A stretch of 64,000 nucleotides of DNA from Bacteriovorax sp. BSW11_IV (GTDB taxonomy: Bacteria > Bdellovibrionota > Bacteriovoracia > Bacteriovoracales > Bacteriovoracaceae). A program made the translations under genes and the position numbers. Below the pieces are notes generated by a model. It did not search any database and was not told where the DNA came from. It saw nothing but the letters and a program-made list of their open reading frames with translations. Where the stretch lies: positions 62,001-126,000 of the forward strand of contig NZ_AUNE01000010.1 of assembly GCF_000447755.1 (NCBI RefSeq), written 5' to 3'. Below, piece by piece: positions 37,096-42,543 of this stretch (its first letter is position 1; each line of letters starts with the position of its first letter).

Positions 37096-37300
37096 TAATC
37101 CTTCGCTATTGTCTAAAGAGGCCATTTTAAATCTAAATATTTGCTTTGTCACGGCACAAGGTACTGAAAACACGATCAAATCTAAAGTTTTCATTAAGCT
37201 AACCATTTGATAATACAAAATTTCCCTTTACCTTTTAAATAATTCCTATTACTTACCGATAAGAAAACAAACACACAAATCTAAATTTAGAGGATTGATT

Positions 37301-38035
37301 ATGTCATTGCAGGACTTTCTTAAAAAGAAAAATGAAAAGATTGAAAAGGCGCTAAAAACAAAAACGGAAGAGATCAAACACAACTGTGCTCACCTTCTTG
37401 AGGCCCTTAAGGAAGAAGGTCATGAAAAATATGAAGAGCTTTATAATCAATTTAAATTTCGTTATGACAAATTAAATGTACAAAGACAGAAAATTGAAAA
37501 ATTCTACGAGACACTTGTAGCAGAAATTGAAAATATTGGAAAAAATCCAATGGACATTATCGTTGATATGGAAAAACGTGCAGAAGAAGCTCTGACAAAA
37601 ACTCCTGCTGCTGATATGTACAAGGCCATCAAAAAATCGACAAAGCGTGTTGTTAGTGGGGCCATAAAAGTAAAAAAAGAAGTTAAAAAAGAAGTAGAGA
37701 AAGCTAAAAAAGAAGTAAAGAAAGAAGTTAATAAAGCTAAAATAGAAGTTGAAAAAGTTAAATCTGCTGCCAAAAGTGCTGCAAAAAAAGCAGTAAAAAA
37801 GGTTGAAAAGAAAGTTGCAAAAAAAGTAGAGAAAAAAGTTGAAAAGAAAGCAGCAAAAAAAGTTGTTAAAAAAGTTGAAAAGAAAACTGTAAAAAAAGCA
37901 GCTCCTAAAAAAGAAGCAAAAAAAGTAACAAAAAAGGCCAGTAAAAAAGTTGAAAAGAAGGCCGCCAAAAAAGTAACGAAGGCCAAAGCACCAGCGGCCA
38001 AAAAAGTCACAAAGAAAAAAGTTTCTAAAAAATAA
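37301..38035 (+). CDS. Lysine-rich histone H1-like protein
   Basis: 244 residues from ATG 37301 (GAGGA upstream). Residues 1-120 form a helical globular head. From about 122 to the end the chain is almost entirely Lys, Ala, Val and Glu in repeating KKVEKK/KKAAKK units, like eukaryotic histone H1 tails and bacterial proteins such as AlgP or chlamydial Hc1. It probably binds and compacts DNA in the nucleoid. The repeat codons are near-identical (GTTGAAAAG), so copy number may vary between strains. It is followed by a terminator. Confidence 0.8.
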   Translation: MSLQDFLKKKNEKIEKALKTKTEEIKHNCAHLLEALKEEGHEKYEELYNQFKFRYDKLNVQRQKIEKFYETLVAEIENIGKNPMDIIVDMEKRAEEALTKTPAADMYKAIKKSTKRVVSGAIKVKKEVKKEVEKAKKEVKKEVNKAKIEVEKVKSAAKSAAKKAVKKVEKKVAKKVEKKVEKKAAKKVVKKVEKKTVKKAAPKKEAKKVTKKASKKVEKKAAKKVTKAKAPAAKKVTKKKVSKK

Positions 38036-38036
38036 T

Positions 38037-38066
38037 AAAGGCCCACACAGTGGGCCTTTTTTTTTA
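38037..38066. terminator. Terminator after the histone-like gene (bidirectional)
   Basis: Stem GGCCCAC (38040-38046) / GTGGGCC (38050-38056) with loop ACA and flanking AAA/TTT, then nine T on the plus strand. On the minus strand T-rich DNA also follows, so it can serve the convergent gene. Confidence 0.9.
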
Positions 38067-38741
38067 ATTCAATTTATTTAATTCATAAACCAAACCAAGC
38101 ACGACCGAAAGAGAGTTCCCATAAAGTTCATGATGAGCTTTTCTATCAGGAAAATGTTCTTTTGAAATCACCTTCACCTTTGAAAGTTCTAGATCACTTG
38201 GAAAGACGAAATGTGAAGCGCTCACATGGCGACCAGATTGCTTTTTAGCCGAATAGGTCATCACATCAAATGAAATCCTTTTTCCAATTTCACTTTTGTC
38301 AAAATCCTCTCTTTTAACGAAGGGAATTCCAATGGCCAGCAAATTATAACTCTTCCCCTCTTGCCACTTCTTAGAAAAGGCCTCTTGCCAGGCCACGAGA
38401 TCATGTTCACCCGCATCGTTAAAAACAACGATAGGAGTGATTTCAATGATTCTTTTTCCCTTATATTCACGAATGAAACTCTCCAAAACTTTACGACCGT
38501 GATAACGGTCCATAGAAAAATCTTTTTGATCACAGCGCTTGGTCGCATTTTTGGCCAAAAGGACTTCTTTGTTGATTATAATTGTTGGAGAACTCGGCAA
38601 GGAATCTGCGCAAAAGAAAGCATCTATAATATTGATGCGAATAACTGGTGAGGCCCAAGAAGGGATATAAAATAGCAAGGGCACAAAGGCCCTTACTAAG
38701 AATTTAGTTATTTGTGTTTGGATTTGGGTCGTACTCTTCAT
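38064..38741 (-). CDS. Exported protein of unknown function
   Basis: About 225 residues. Residues 1-31 form a somewhat long signal peptide ending PSWA. It has an alternating beta/alpha feel (VIRINIIDAFFCADS, IIEITPIVVFND) with two cysteines, but I recognise no family. Its start lies 38 bp inside the end of the giant coiled-coil gene, so the two should be co-translated. Confidence 0.62.
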   Translation of the reverse strand: MKSTTQIQTQITKFLVRAFVPLLFYIPSWASPVIRINIIDAFFCADSLPSSPTIIINKEVLLAKNATKRCDQKDFSMDRYHGRKVLESFIREYKGKRIIEITPIVVFNDAGEHDLVAWQEAFSKKWQEGKSYNLLAIGIPFVKREDFDKSEIGKRISFDVMTYSAKKQSGRHVSASHFVFPSDLELSKVKVISKEHFPDRKAHHELYGNSLSVVLGLVYELNKLN

Positions 38742-41700
38742 AATCAAATGGTGCGTTCATCCCTTTTACTTTAGCAACTTTTTTATAAAGTGACTTACTG
38801 TAATCCTCAATGCGATCATCAGAATTTTTAAGTTCTTTCAACGCCGCTTTAATAAATAAAGCTCCGAAAAGTCTATTTGTAAGGGCCGTTGTAAATTCAT
38901 CTTTTAATGGTTTCCAAACTCTTGTCGCACTTGAAGTTACATAATAAAGCTCGTAGGCAAAAAGGAAAAGTCCAATTGTGTCTTTTTTAGCTTTAGTATC
39001 AACTTTCTTCATAACTTTATTGTGTAAAAGTGATGAATCATCTTTAACTTTGTTAGCAATATCCTTATCTCTTGAAAAAGTACTTCCACTTGCTAGGTAA
39101 AGTTCATTAATTCTAAGATTCTCATGAAGAGAGCGAACCATTGATCCTTGCACTAGAAGTTTCGCTTCTTCACTTAGCGCAAAGTATTCTGTTTCAGACA
39201 GACGTGAAAGCGCTGTTACGAGTTCATCGTTTGTTTTTGTAAGAACACTTGCAAGAGGCAGGAGCTCTTTTACGCGTGAGTTATCAGCAACAAGAACAAC
39301 GTTTGAATCGGCCAGTGATTTATTTAACAACTTATTTGTTAATACTGTTTGTACCGTTTTTCCTTTTGTTCCATATTTAAACGGAATTGTTTTTGAACTC
39401 TTCAGAGCTGATAAATTCCCTTGTACTCTAGACCAGTCTTTATTTTCTTCTGCAAAAATAAAAGTCGTCATTTTAGATTTAGTCATTAATGTATTAAGAG
39501 CAGCTGCTGTTCCATAAGGAAGAACAACGAGTTTCTGTCCAACTACACCATTTGTTAATACTTTAGCACTTGTTGTTCCAAGAGAAGTATCAATGACAGC
39601 AACAGTTCCAAGGCCACCAAGTTCATTGGCCATATCGAGAAGAAGTTTTGAAGACTCTTCACCGTTTGCTACAATCGCAACTTTAGAGCGAGCTTCAGCA
39701 TATGGAAGTTTGGCCATAGCGCGCATTTTACTCGGTAGACGACCAATAACAACACCATTTGTGCTTAATGTAACGTCGTAGGCCAAGGTTTCATATACAT
39801 CAGCAATATTATCTACTAATAAAGAAGCTGAATCTAGCTTAGTCGCTTTATCAAGAACAGCAATTGGCGTAAATCCTGTTTTAATTGTTCTTGGCGAAGA
39901 TGAACTCAACTCAACATTGATAGAAGATGCAATTTTCTTCGAGCTATTATTCGTCAGTGAGAGAGAGATCTTATTTTCTTTTTGGTACTCAAGCTCAGAA
40001 GCAAGAGATAATCCACTAAGAGAAACAGGGTACTCAACACTTACGTTTTTAGCATCATATCCATTTAAAACACCAGCTCCAGCATCTTTGAAGTAGCGAC
40101 CTTGAATGGCCTTCTCAAGAGTTAACGGGTAAGAAACGTAAGAAGAGATAGTCTCAGTTCGACCGATTGTACTCTCTTTTAGCTGTCCCTTTACTGCTCC
40201 CTTAACAACAACCGAAGATTTAGCAGGAATTGCAGGAAGAGCTACAACTGCTCCACCATTTAAGTGAACCTTCGCTCCTACTGCTTCTTTCTCGCCGTAG
40301 TTTGAAACTTTAACACTTACAACGAAATCTTCATTTGGCATCATGACGCTATCGTTAACACCAACACCTGTTGTTCCAACATCAGTAATGCTAGAATTTT
40401 CGTATTTTAAAACCGCACCGTTCTTATAAACACTTTCAACTTCTGCATAACGTGACTTTCTATACTTTTCAGTAACAGGTCCAATTTGCTTGTTATATGT
40501 CAATAGCTCGTGATGAGCGAATGACTGAGAACGAATGCTTTCATATACTGATGAGTAGACACTCTTATAATTAGAAGCATAAGTAGACTTATACTCTGGT
40601 GCTGTTGTATTTGGTGTTTGGGAAAATGCTGTTCGATATTTCTCAAAAGAATTTTCATAGGCCCCTGGGTATGTTCTATCATAGGCCAGTTTGTGTCCGT
40701 CACTGTATCCCTCTTTTTGGCTTTCAGGATACTTTGTCTGGAAAGCACGATCATAATTTGAATCGTATGATCTATTGTAGTTTAGATCAAACACCGGTCC
40801 AACTTGTTCACCGTAACTTGTGATAATTGAATCTTGGTAGCGAGCACGATAACCATCTTCGTAGGCCTTTCTCACAACCATTCTGTTAAATATTTTTGAA
40901 GGCTGAAATTTGTTTCCTTTATAGCCATTTGGAAAGCTTGGAATTGAACGAGCAAAAGTTCCCGCAAATTGACCACCAACAGTTAATTCTTTCAATCCTT
41001 GTGCTTCATTTTTCTTAATGGCCTCGGCCTGTCCTGCACGCTCACCAGTGGCCTTACCATCGCGATCAGCTCTTATATTACCTGCTGCAATACCTTGATT
41101 TTGTCCAATAACAGAAGCATCTGAAGCATTGGCCGCTCTCGTAGCATCTTCGGCAGAAATTCTATTTGCTGCTTGAGTATTTCCTTTTACAGTCCCATCG
41201 ATACGGCCGTTTTTCTCACCATCAACGCGAGCACTTGCCTCACCGTCTTTTAGGCCGATCTCTTGCCCAATTGTATAATCACGTCTTTGTCCTGCGCGAA
41301 CACCTTCATAGTGACCATCTCTCTCACCTTGCATTCTTCCTTCGCTTTCACCAATTCTGTAAGCAAGATCACTTCCGTCATAGCGACCATCGTCACTACC
41401 ACTAATAGCACCTTCTCTGTTAATTTTTAACACACGATCAACCAAAGACTGGCGATAGACATGTTTTCTTTGCTCAGCATGCTTTAGGGCCTGATCAACT
41501 TTCGCCAGATCATTTGCAATGCGTGAGAGTTCATTTGATCTTTGAGTAAGAACTCCTCTCAATCTGATTTTTTCTTGTTCTGAACGTGATTTTTGTTCAA
41601 CAAGTTTTTGCTTAACTTCTTTAAGATTCGCCACTCTTTTTAGAGCGCGATCTATCTTCTCATTTGCTGATACAATAAGTTTATCGTTGGCCTCAATTTT

Positions 41701-42276
41701 AGCTTTTTTCTTGGCAATTTTCTCATTATCTGCAGCGATATTTTTTGTTACATTATCAATTTTTGCATCGAGATCAGCGATCTCTTTTTTACACTCTTCA
41801 GTTGGAGTTGCACTACAAGTTGATTGAGCACTCGTTTTTTTCTCAAACAATTTTTGAAGTCTTTGTTTTTTTGCTTCAACTTCTGTTTGTAATTGTGGAA
41901 TTTCAGTCTTTAAAGAAGCCGTTTCAGTTTCACTTTTTCTTTTCAACTCTGTTTGTGCCGTAATCTGATTTTGCAGGTTCTGAATTTCAGTGGAATGAGC
42001 GGCCTGATCCTCGTCGATTTTTTTTAGGATCGCATTTTGGGCCTGAATTTGATCGCCAACGACCTTTACTTCTTTTTCTTTATCTTCGTGAACGCGCTTA
42101 ACTTGGTTATAACTTCTTTGTCTGTCATTCACAGATCTATCAAGAGAACTTAGCTCTGGATCGTCCATCAATCTAAATGTTGGTGTTCCGATGTAATCTT
42201 TTTCCCAGTTGGCCAAAACTTGTGAGCTCATGGCCCCCAGTAGCCCAACCACTGCTACGACGTGTAATTTTCCCAT
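38704..42276 (-). CDS. Giant exported protein: coiled coil, GxxxG ladder, YxxxY ladder
   Basis: About 1190 residues from ATG 42276 (GGAG upstream). Order: signal peptide 1-22 (GLLGAMSSQVLA); coiled coil to about residue 280; a stretch near 294-425 with Gly every fourth residue (GESEGRMQGERDGHYEG); a stretch near 470-595 with Tyr or Phe every fourth residue (YNRSYDSNYDRAF); a CARDB-like beta domain near 620-700 (FVVSVKVSNYGEKEAVG); and a C-terminal half with an alpha/beta domain. Four-residue periodicity is that of helices with one smooth or one aromatic face. It may be a fibre, stalk or scaffold at the cell surface or in the periplasm. The family is unknown to me. Confidence 0.75.
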   Translation of the reverse strand: MGKLHVVAVVGLLGAMSSQVLANWEKDYIGTPTFRLMDDPELSSLDRSVNDRQRSYNQVKRVHEDKEKEVKVVGDQIQAQNAILKKIDEDQAAHSTEIQNLQNQITAQTELKRKSETETASLKTEIPQLQTEVEAKKQRLQKLFEKKTSAQSTCSATPTEECKKEIADLDAKIDNVTKNIAADNEKIAKKKAKIEANDKLIVSANEKIDRALKRVANLKEVKQKLVEQKSRSEQEKIRLRGVLTQRSNELSRIANDLAKVDQALKHAEQRKHVYRQSLVDRVLKINREGAISGSDDGRYDGSDLAYRIGESEGRMQGERDGHYEGVRAGQRRDYTIGQEIGLKDGEASARVDGEKNGRIDGTVKGNTQAANRISAEDATRAANASDASVIGQNQGIAAGNIRADRDGKATGERAGQAEAIKKNEAQGLKELTVGGQFAGTFARSIPSFPNGYKGNKFQPSKIFNRMVVRKAYEDGYRARYQDSIITSYGEQVGPVFDLNYNRSYDSNYDRAFQTKYPESQKEGYSDGHKLAYDRTYPGAYENSFEKYRTAFSQTPNTTAPEYKSTYASNYKSVYSSVYESIRSQSFAHHELLTYNKQIGPVTEKYRKSRYAEVESVYKNGAVLKYENSSITDVGTTGVGVNDSVMMPNEDFVVSVKVSNYGEKEAVGAKVHLNGGAVVALPAIPAKSSVVVKGAVKGQLKESTIGRTETISSYVSYPLTLEKAIQGRYFKDAGAGVLNGYDAKNVSVEYPVSLSGLSLASELEYQKENKISLSLTNNSSKKIASSINVELSSSSPRTIKTGFTPIAVLDKATKLDSASLLVDNIADVYETLAYDVTLSTNGVVIGRLPSKMRAMAKLPYAEARSKVAIVANGEESSKLLLDMANELGGLGTVAVIDTSLGTTSAKVLTNGVVGQKLVVLPYGTAAALNTLMTKSKMTTFIFAEENKDWSRVQGNLSALKSSKTIPFKYGTKGKTVQTVLTNKLLNKSLADSNVVLVADNSRVKELLPLASVLTKTNDELVTALSRLSETEYFALSEEAKLLVQGSMVRSLHENLRINELYLASGSTFSRDKDIANKVKDDSSLLHNKVMKKVDTKAKKDTIGLFLFAYELYYVTSSATRVWKPLKDEFTTALTNRLFGALFIKAALKELKNSDDRIEDYSKSLYKKVAKVKGMNAPFDYEEYDPNPNTNN

Positions 42277-42518: not shown

Positions 42519-42543
42519 AAAAAGGACCTAATCTAGGTCCTTA
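42519..42543 (-). terminator. Terminator containing the stop codon of the exported hydrolase
   Basis: Stem AAGGACCTA (42522-42530) / TAGGTCCTT (42534-42542). The right arm includes the TAA stop of the minus-strand gene. T-rich sequence follows on that strand. Confidence 0.82.

Follow-up and report, generated by a model that had tools for sequence, protein, structure and literature searches.

Why would a bacterium export a protein of 1190 residues in which glycine, and then tyrosine or phenylalanine, comes back at every fourth position? This question is raised by one gene, P0001, carried by a 64,000-nucleotide stretch of Bacteriovorax sp. BSW11_IV DNA (the whole stretch that was analysed, hereafter the window). 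An earlier note, made from the letters alone, had described a coiled coil followed by two long helices, each with its own ladder, in an exported protein that may form a fibre, stalk or envelope-spanning scaffold, and had found the tandem of the two ladders new. The open reading frame is real, and its ATG is preceded by an AGGAGAG Shine-Dalgarno sequence. The elements of the locus are the following:

42522-42542, minus strand: predicted intrinsic terminator between an upstream hydrolase gene and the giant gene
38704-42276, minus strand: giant Gly/Tyr-ladder gene P0001, 1190 aa (ATG at 42276, stop at 38704-38706)
42211-42276, minus strand: Sec-type signal peptide of the giant, residues 1-22, called by eye (cleavage between ...SSQVLA and NW)
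41425-42159, minus strand: predicted coiled-coil hairpin, residues 40-284, arms 40-154 and 160-284 (AlphaFold2 helices; Foldseek and hmmsearch)
41791-41817, minus strand: hairpin tip with Cys154 and Cys162, C-x-A-x-P-x-x-x-C (sequence comparison)
41032-41412, minus strand: Gly ladder, residues 289-415 (shuffle statistics, conservation)
40402-40863, minus strand: Tyr/Phe ladder, residues 472-625 (shuffle statistics, conservation)
39679-40410, minus strand: two predicted Ig-like beta-sandwich domains, residues about 623-866 (AlphaFold2 strands, Foldseek)
39277-39678, minus strand: predicted alpha/beta domain, residues about 867-1000 (AlphaFold2; conserved residues)
38707-39276, minus strand: C-terminal helical region, residues 1001-1190 (AlphaFold2, alignment)
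38064-38741, minus strand: subtilisin-like partner gene with a small exported product (ATG at 38741, stop at 38064)
38037-38059, minus strand: predicted intrinsic terminator directly past the partner gene

The export proposed earlier agrees with this signal peptide and with the hydrophobic N-terminus common to the relatives of the giant. The partner gene starts before the giant gene ends, with an overlap of 38 nt, and the two look like a two-gene transcription unit because predicted terminators bound the pair. Convergent with the partner gene, at 37295-38035 on the plus strand, lies a gene whose 246-aa product has a long tail of Lys and Ala (AAKKVEKK...) and resembles histone H1-like bacterial proteins.

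The two ladders are real. In residues 289-415 (about 127 residues), 18 pairs of glycines were counted at i,i+4, against 4.4 +/- 1.8 after shuffling, and the periods 1-3 and 5-7 gave 0 or 1 pairs each; in residues 472-625 (about 154 residues), 15 Tyr/Phe pairs were counted at i,i+4, against 4.6 +/- 1.8. None of 20,000 shuffles of the local sequence reached the observed count for either ladder. The lengths first given for them, 80-130 and about 120 residues, were thus slightly low. The register is briefly broken in the Gly ladder near 366-388, and twice in the Tyr ladder, near 513-516 and 554-559. The strongest evidence for the ladders is their conservation. Indeed, among 34 relatives, which share about 25-35% identity with P0001, 14 positions of the Gly ladder hold Gly in 100% of the sequences and most of the remaining ones in at least 85%, and most Tyr-ladder positions are 90-100% Tyr, Phe or Trp. 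Moreover, a 162-residue block containing the Gly ladder is gap-free in 23 of 24 proteins, including the remote L064, whose block is 31% identical. Given this gap-free alignment and the near-invariant positions, the Gly ladder is a fixed structure, in contrast to the repeat of FliH, rather than an elastic one. One could still take the ladders for compositional drift, or for a disordered repeat without structural meaning, as the sequence is repetitive and polar. This reading is barely credible and is refuted by conservation: the ladder positions stay near-invariant while the rest of the protein diverges to 25-35% identity, TRF found no tandem repeat in the ladder DNA, and helices are predicted over both ladders with a pLDDT of about 80-90.

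These helices come from an AlphaFold2 model of the giant, built on an alignment of 25 sequences (mean pLDDT 81, pTM 0.45). They span residues 40-154, 160-382, 387-424, 466-512, 517-553 and 560-619, with pLDDT mostly 75-90, so that the succession of a coiled coil and long helices is recovered as first read, with helices and not disorder over the ladders. The helix 160-382 extends the coiled coil into the Gly ladder, most of which it covers. Past the ladders, the model places the two Ig-like domains and then the alpha/beta domain, in which G887-G888, D896 and S898 are conserved; this C-terminal Ig pair and alpha/beta domain go beyond the earlier note, as do the spread of the family across the phylum and its link to a subtilisin-like gene, both described below. 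The arrangement of the helices is not fixed by the model because its pTM is low. When the whole giant was submitted to Foldseek, only Ig and generic coiled-coil pieces were recognised. The Ig pair matches transglutaminase beta-domains and C3, and the Ig region of one family member gives a weak CARDB match. The hairpin matches SMC and other coiled coils in Foldseek and hmmsearch. Like an SMC-type hairpin, the giant has antiparallel coiled-coil arms on either side of a tip; unlike SMC, it is exported and has neither ATPase heads nor hinge, and the SMC and myosin matches were set aside as generic coiled coil. At the tip, Cys154 and Cys162 are a possible disulfide, and these cysteines are missing from a genus with a shorter hairpin.

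The period of the ladders constrains how such helices could pack. Since the repeat of 4.0 residues exceeds the 3.6 residues of a helical turn, the stripe winds by about 40 degrees per step, i.e., 10 degrees per residue, and a partner helix could track it only in a tight right-handed superhelix, for which geometry alone gives a pitch of about 54 A and a crossing of about -41 degrees at a helix spacing of 6.5 A. A crossing angle near -40 degrees is the known value for GxxxG helix pairs, and a close right-handed pair near this angle characterises GASright-type packing. Because both ladders share the same period, we propose that the Gly groove would accommodate the Tyr stripe, either of the same chain or of a second one; the main alternative would be Gly-on-Gly packing in a dimer. 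Taken to its full extent, the idea would be that of a new four-residue coiled coil, in which a Tyr-striped helix in a Gly-striped groove forms a long right-handed rod, used phylum-wide as an exported scaffold and controlled by a protease in one branch; we hold this only tentatively. Across 58 proteins, the lengths of the two ladders correlate moderately (Spearman 0.59, relatedness being ignored), and one paralogue group has ladders of 84 and about 135 residues. This moderate correlation and this exception disfavour a strict one-to-one pairing of the ladders, and strict pairing by equal length was dropped.

The Gly-on-Gly alternative leads to the known glycine ladders. In FliH, a cytosolic protein, 2 to 10 Gly repeats (m), the number of which varies by species, have been argued to dimerise helices (PMC2674601). 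Yae1 and Lto1 are eukaryotic cytosolic adaptors carrying a 40-residue motif, and their binding to each other needs the GX3 motif (PMC4523923). The earlier note had likened the glycine ladder to these two families. As a motif, the likeness stands: like FliH and YscL, the giant has Gly at every fourth residue of a soluble, polar helix, and like the Yae1/Lto1 deca-GX3 motif (PF09811), it has a GX3 ladder. As membership, it fails by profile and by anatomy. Unlike FliH and YscL, the giant is exported and carries about 25 Gly over 32 tetrads, at a length fixed in the family and followed by a Tyr ladder; it does not fit the pattern AxxxG(xxxG)mxxxA, with m about 2-10 and a species-variable length, as its ladder is far longer and constant in 23/24 proteins. 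Pfam and NCBIfam found no FliH/YscL domain in the giant, and the PF09811 profile gave no match to P0001 up to E = 1. Two distant giants score 26.2 and 24.7 bits on Yae1_N, under the cut-off of 27.5.

The closest rival of the scaffold that we favour below builds on these precedents. The Gly ladder would self-dimerise in the way suggested for FliH; the Tyr ladder would act independently, for example as a surface for glycan, peptidoglycan or prey envelope, the giant being a dimeric adhesin or tether. The part played by Gly repeats in FliH and by GX3 in Yae1-Lto1, the sub-threshold Yae1_N matches of distant giants, and the Ig domains of an exported protein all speak for it. We nevertheless consider it doubtful, since no binding domain was recognised in the giant and since the shared four-residue period and the constant order of the ladders suggest structural coupling.

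How far does this architecture extend? With a C-terminal profile, the giant family was found in 49 of 129 Bacteriovoracaceae genomes, among them Halobacteriovorax marinus and several Bacteriovorax assemblies, and a whole-protein search matched 51 of the 129, two of them weakly; the genome of the window has a single copy. A scan of the genome contigs with P0001 alone confirmed no relatives, which were found with an alignment of closer relatives. Weak matches elsewhere in the phylum mostly come from proteins that are about 970-1400 residues long and keep the domain order, i.e., a coiled coil, a Gly ladder, about 190-220 residues on a Tyr ladder, and an Ig region. Of 368 genomes examined from the phylum, 173 matched a profile including these distant giants, and the weak matches may be convergent Gly repeats; both ladders were checked as present in 24 proteins outside the main group. 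Searches of Pfam, NCBIfam, PHROGs, plasmids and phages yielded no member of the giant family, and the ladders had no relative in Pfam, NCBIfam, PDB sequence or fold searches, so that no close known family emerged. Matches of the Gly ladder to PDB sequences (OCM3, pyridoxal kinase, an ARID protein) were dropped as low-complexity. As to novelty, the Gly-Tyr tandem in one exported protein was absent from the libraries and open-access papers searched, the genomes covered being those of this phylum. The main text of a comparative genomics study of the Bdellovibrionota contains none of the words "subtilisin", "serine protease", "coiled" or "glycine" (PMC11656739).

Shorter Gly/Tyr-ladder paralogues, of about 770-925 aa, adjoin no subtilase and lie beside a small related lipoprotein of about 175-200 aa (four loci, L124:3457-4050, L125:3596-4171, L123:6439-6978 and L126:6793-7314), with which they constitute a second partnered system. 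Elsewhere, at L089:6303-9335, two lipoprotein-like genes (511 and 499 aa) stand in tandem; their GYxxG ladders are very long, and the product of the first gene matches Yae1_N (E 1.4e-13).

The giant and its subtilisin-like partner are genetically linked. At each of the 18 well-flanked loci examined, which come from the window and from 17 relatives, the gene adjoining the giant belongs to one family. Among the 129 Bacteriovoracaceae genomes, 46 have both genes and 79 have neither, the giant occurring alone in 3 and the partner alone in 1; hence the partner is present in 46/49 giant-bearing genomes against 1/80 giant-free ones (Fisher p 4e-30, kinship ignored), and, at the genus level, in 19/19 genera with the giant against 0/29 without. 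In 39 of the 46, the partner directly follows the giant on the same strand. Five genomes with other gene orders (G011, G022, G023, G070, G082) still keep it within about 5 kb of the giant; a contig break separates the two genes in G049, and G083 carries them on different contigs. Six loci from other families of the phylum also place a subtilase beside the giant. Four of these neighbours pass the Pfam Peptidase_S8 cut-off (L080, 1.9e-20; L083, 1.3e-16; L081, 4.1e-9; L082, 3.7e-5), that of L084 gives a weaker match (0.017), and that of L128 was found only with a profile purpose-built for the partner family (2e-22); judging from these matches, L084 and L128 are likely further giant-subtilase pairs. 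Several distant giants (L077, L127), as well as the paralogues, have no neighbouring subtilase. In several relatives, genes for a VanY-type D-Ala-D-Ala carboxypeptidase and an MscS-type channel lie near the pair (L057:14486-15169 and L057:6061-6939), and the window lacks them there.

The partner-family profile found nothing in the PDB by sequence, and for this reason the fold was tested by structure. The AlphaFold2 model of the L057 copy, a Bacteriovoracaceae partner taken in place of that of the window, has a pLDDT of 90.7 and a pTM of 0.84, and its fold matches subtilisins: of 187 PDB matches at E <= 0.001, the best 50 are all of the subtilisin family. Asp, His and Ser stand in subtilisin order in every partner aligned, including that of the window (D42, H83, S212, in the numbering of window:38067-38747). 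Prediction and alignment thus give the partner family a subtilisin fold with its triad, as in family S8. The partners differ from S8 subtilisins in being small, giant-linked, without propeptide and mostly without the oxyanion-hole Asn, which by alignment only L083 and L059 have. The PF00082 cut-off is passed by four partners in other families, and by neither the window copy nor the Bacteriovoracaceae copies scanned. The window copy, also without this Asn, has Asp-Ala-Phe in place of the family's Asp-Thr-Gly, a deleted internal segment and a short C-terminus from which the cysteine region of its relatives is gone, as if it were decaying or specialising; these losses make its proteolytic activity doubtful. 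More generally, to judge from the alignment, the family may be slow, specialised or partly non-catalytic despite its kept triad.

In the partners, the catalytic domain starts about 10-20 residues past the signal peptide, which leaves no room for an inhibitor-I9 propeptide. This could mean that the giant serves the protease, as a chaperone, inhibitor or display platform for an enzyme lacking that room, and the near-perfect co-occurrence would fit. We regard it as unlikely: a chaperone of 1200 residues is out of proportion for an enzyme of 250, and other paralogues pair with a small lipoprotein, so the ladder scaffold is useful without a protease.

We prefer, at about even odds (roughly 0.5), a two-gene secreted system in which an exported tetrad-helix scaffold would work with a dedicated subtilisin-like partner. 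The first gene would give a Sec-exported, elongated and mostly helical scaffold, made of the coiled-coil hairpin, the Gly-ladder helix, the Tyr-ladder helix, the two Ig domains and the alpha/beta domain, and probably standing as a rod in the envelope or outside the cell. Its tetrad helices would pack in the tight right-handed way described above. The second gene would give a small exported subtilisin-like protein acting on the scaffold or held by it; we infer both its protease activity and its direct contact with the giant.

In conclusion, the giants form a large, strongly conserved family of exported proteins without a Pfam or NCBIfam name, and their phylum has bacterial predators among its members. 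Should the two ladders pair, the result would be a right-handed tetrad coiled coil usable in design. Finally, the strict link with a subtilisin-like gene offers a direct experimental handle on the role of these envelope or secreted structures, possibly in predation.
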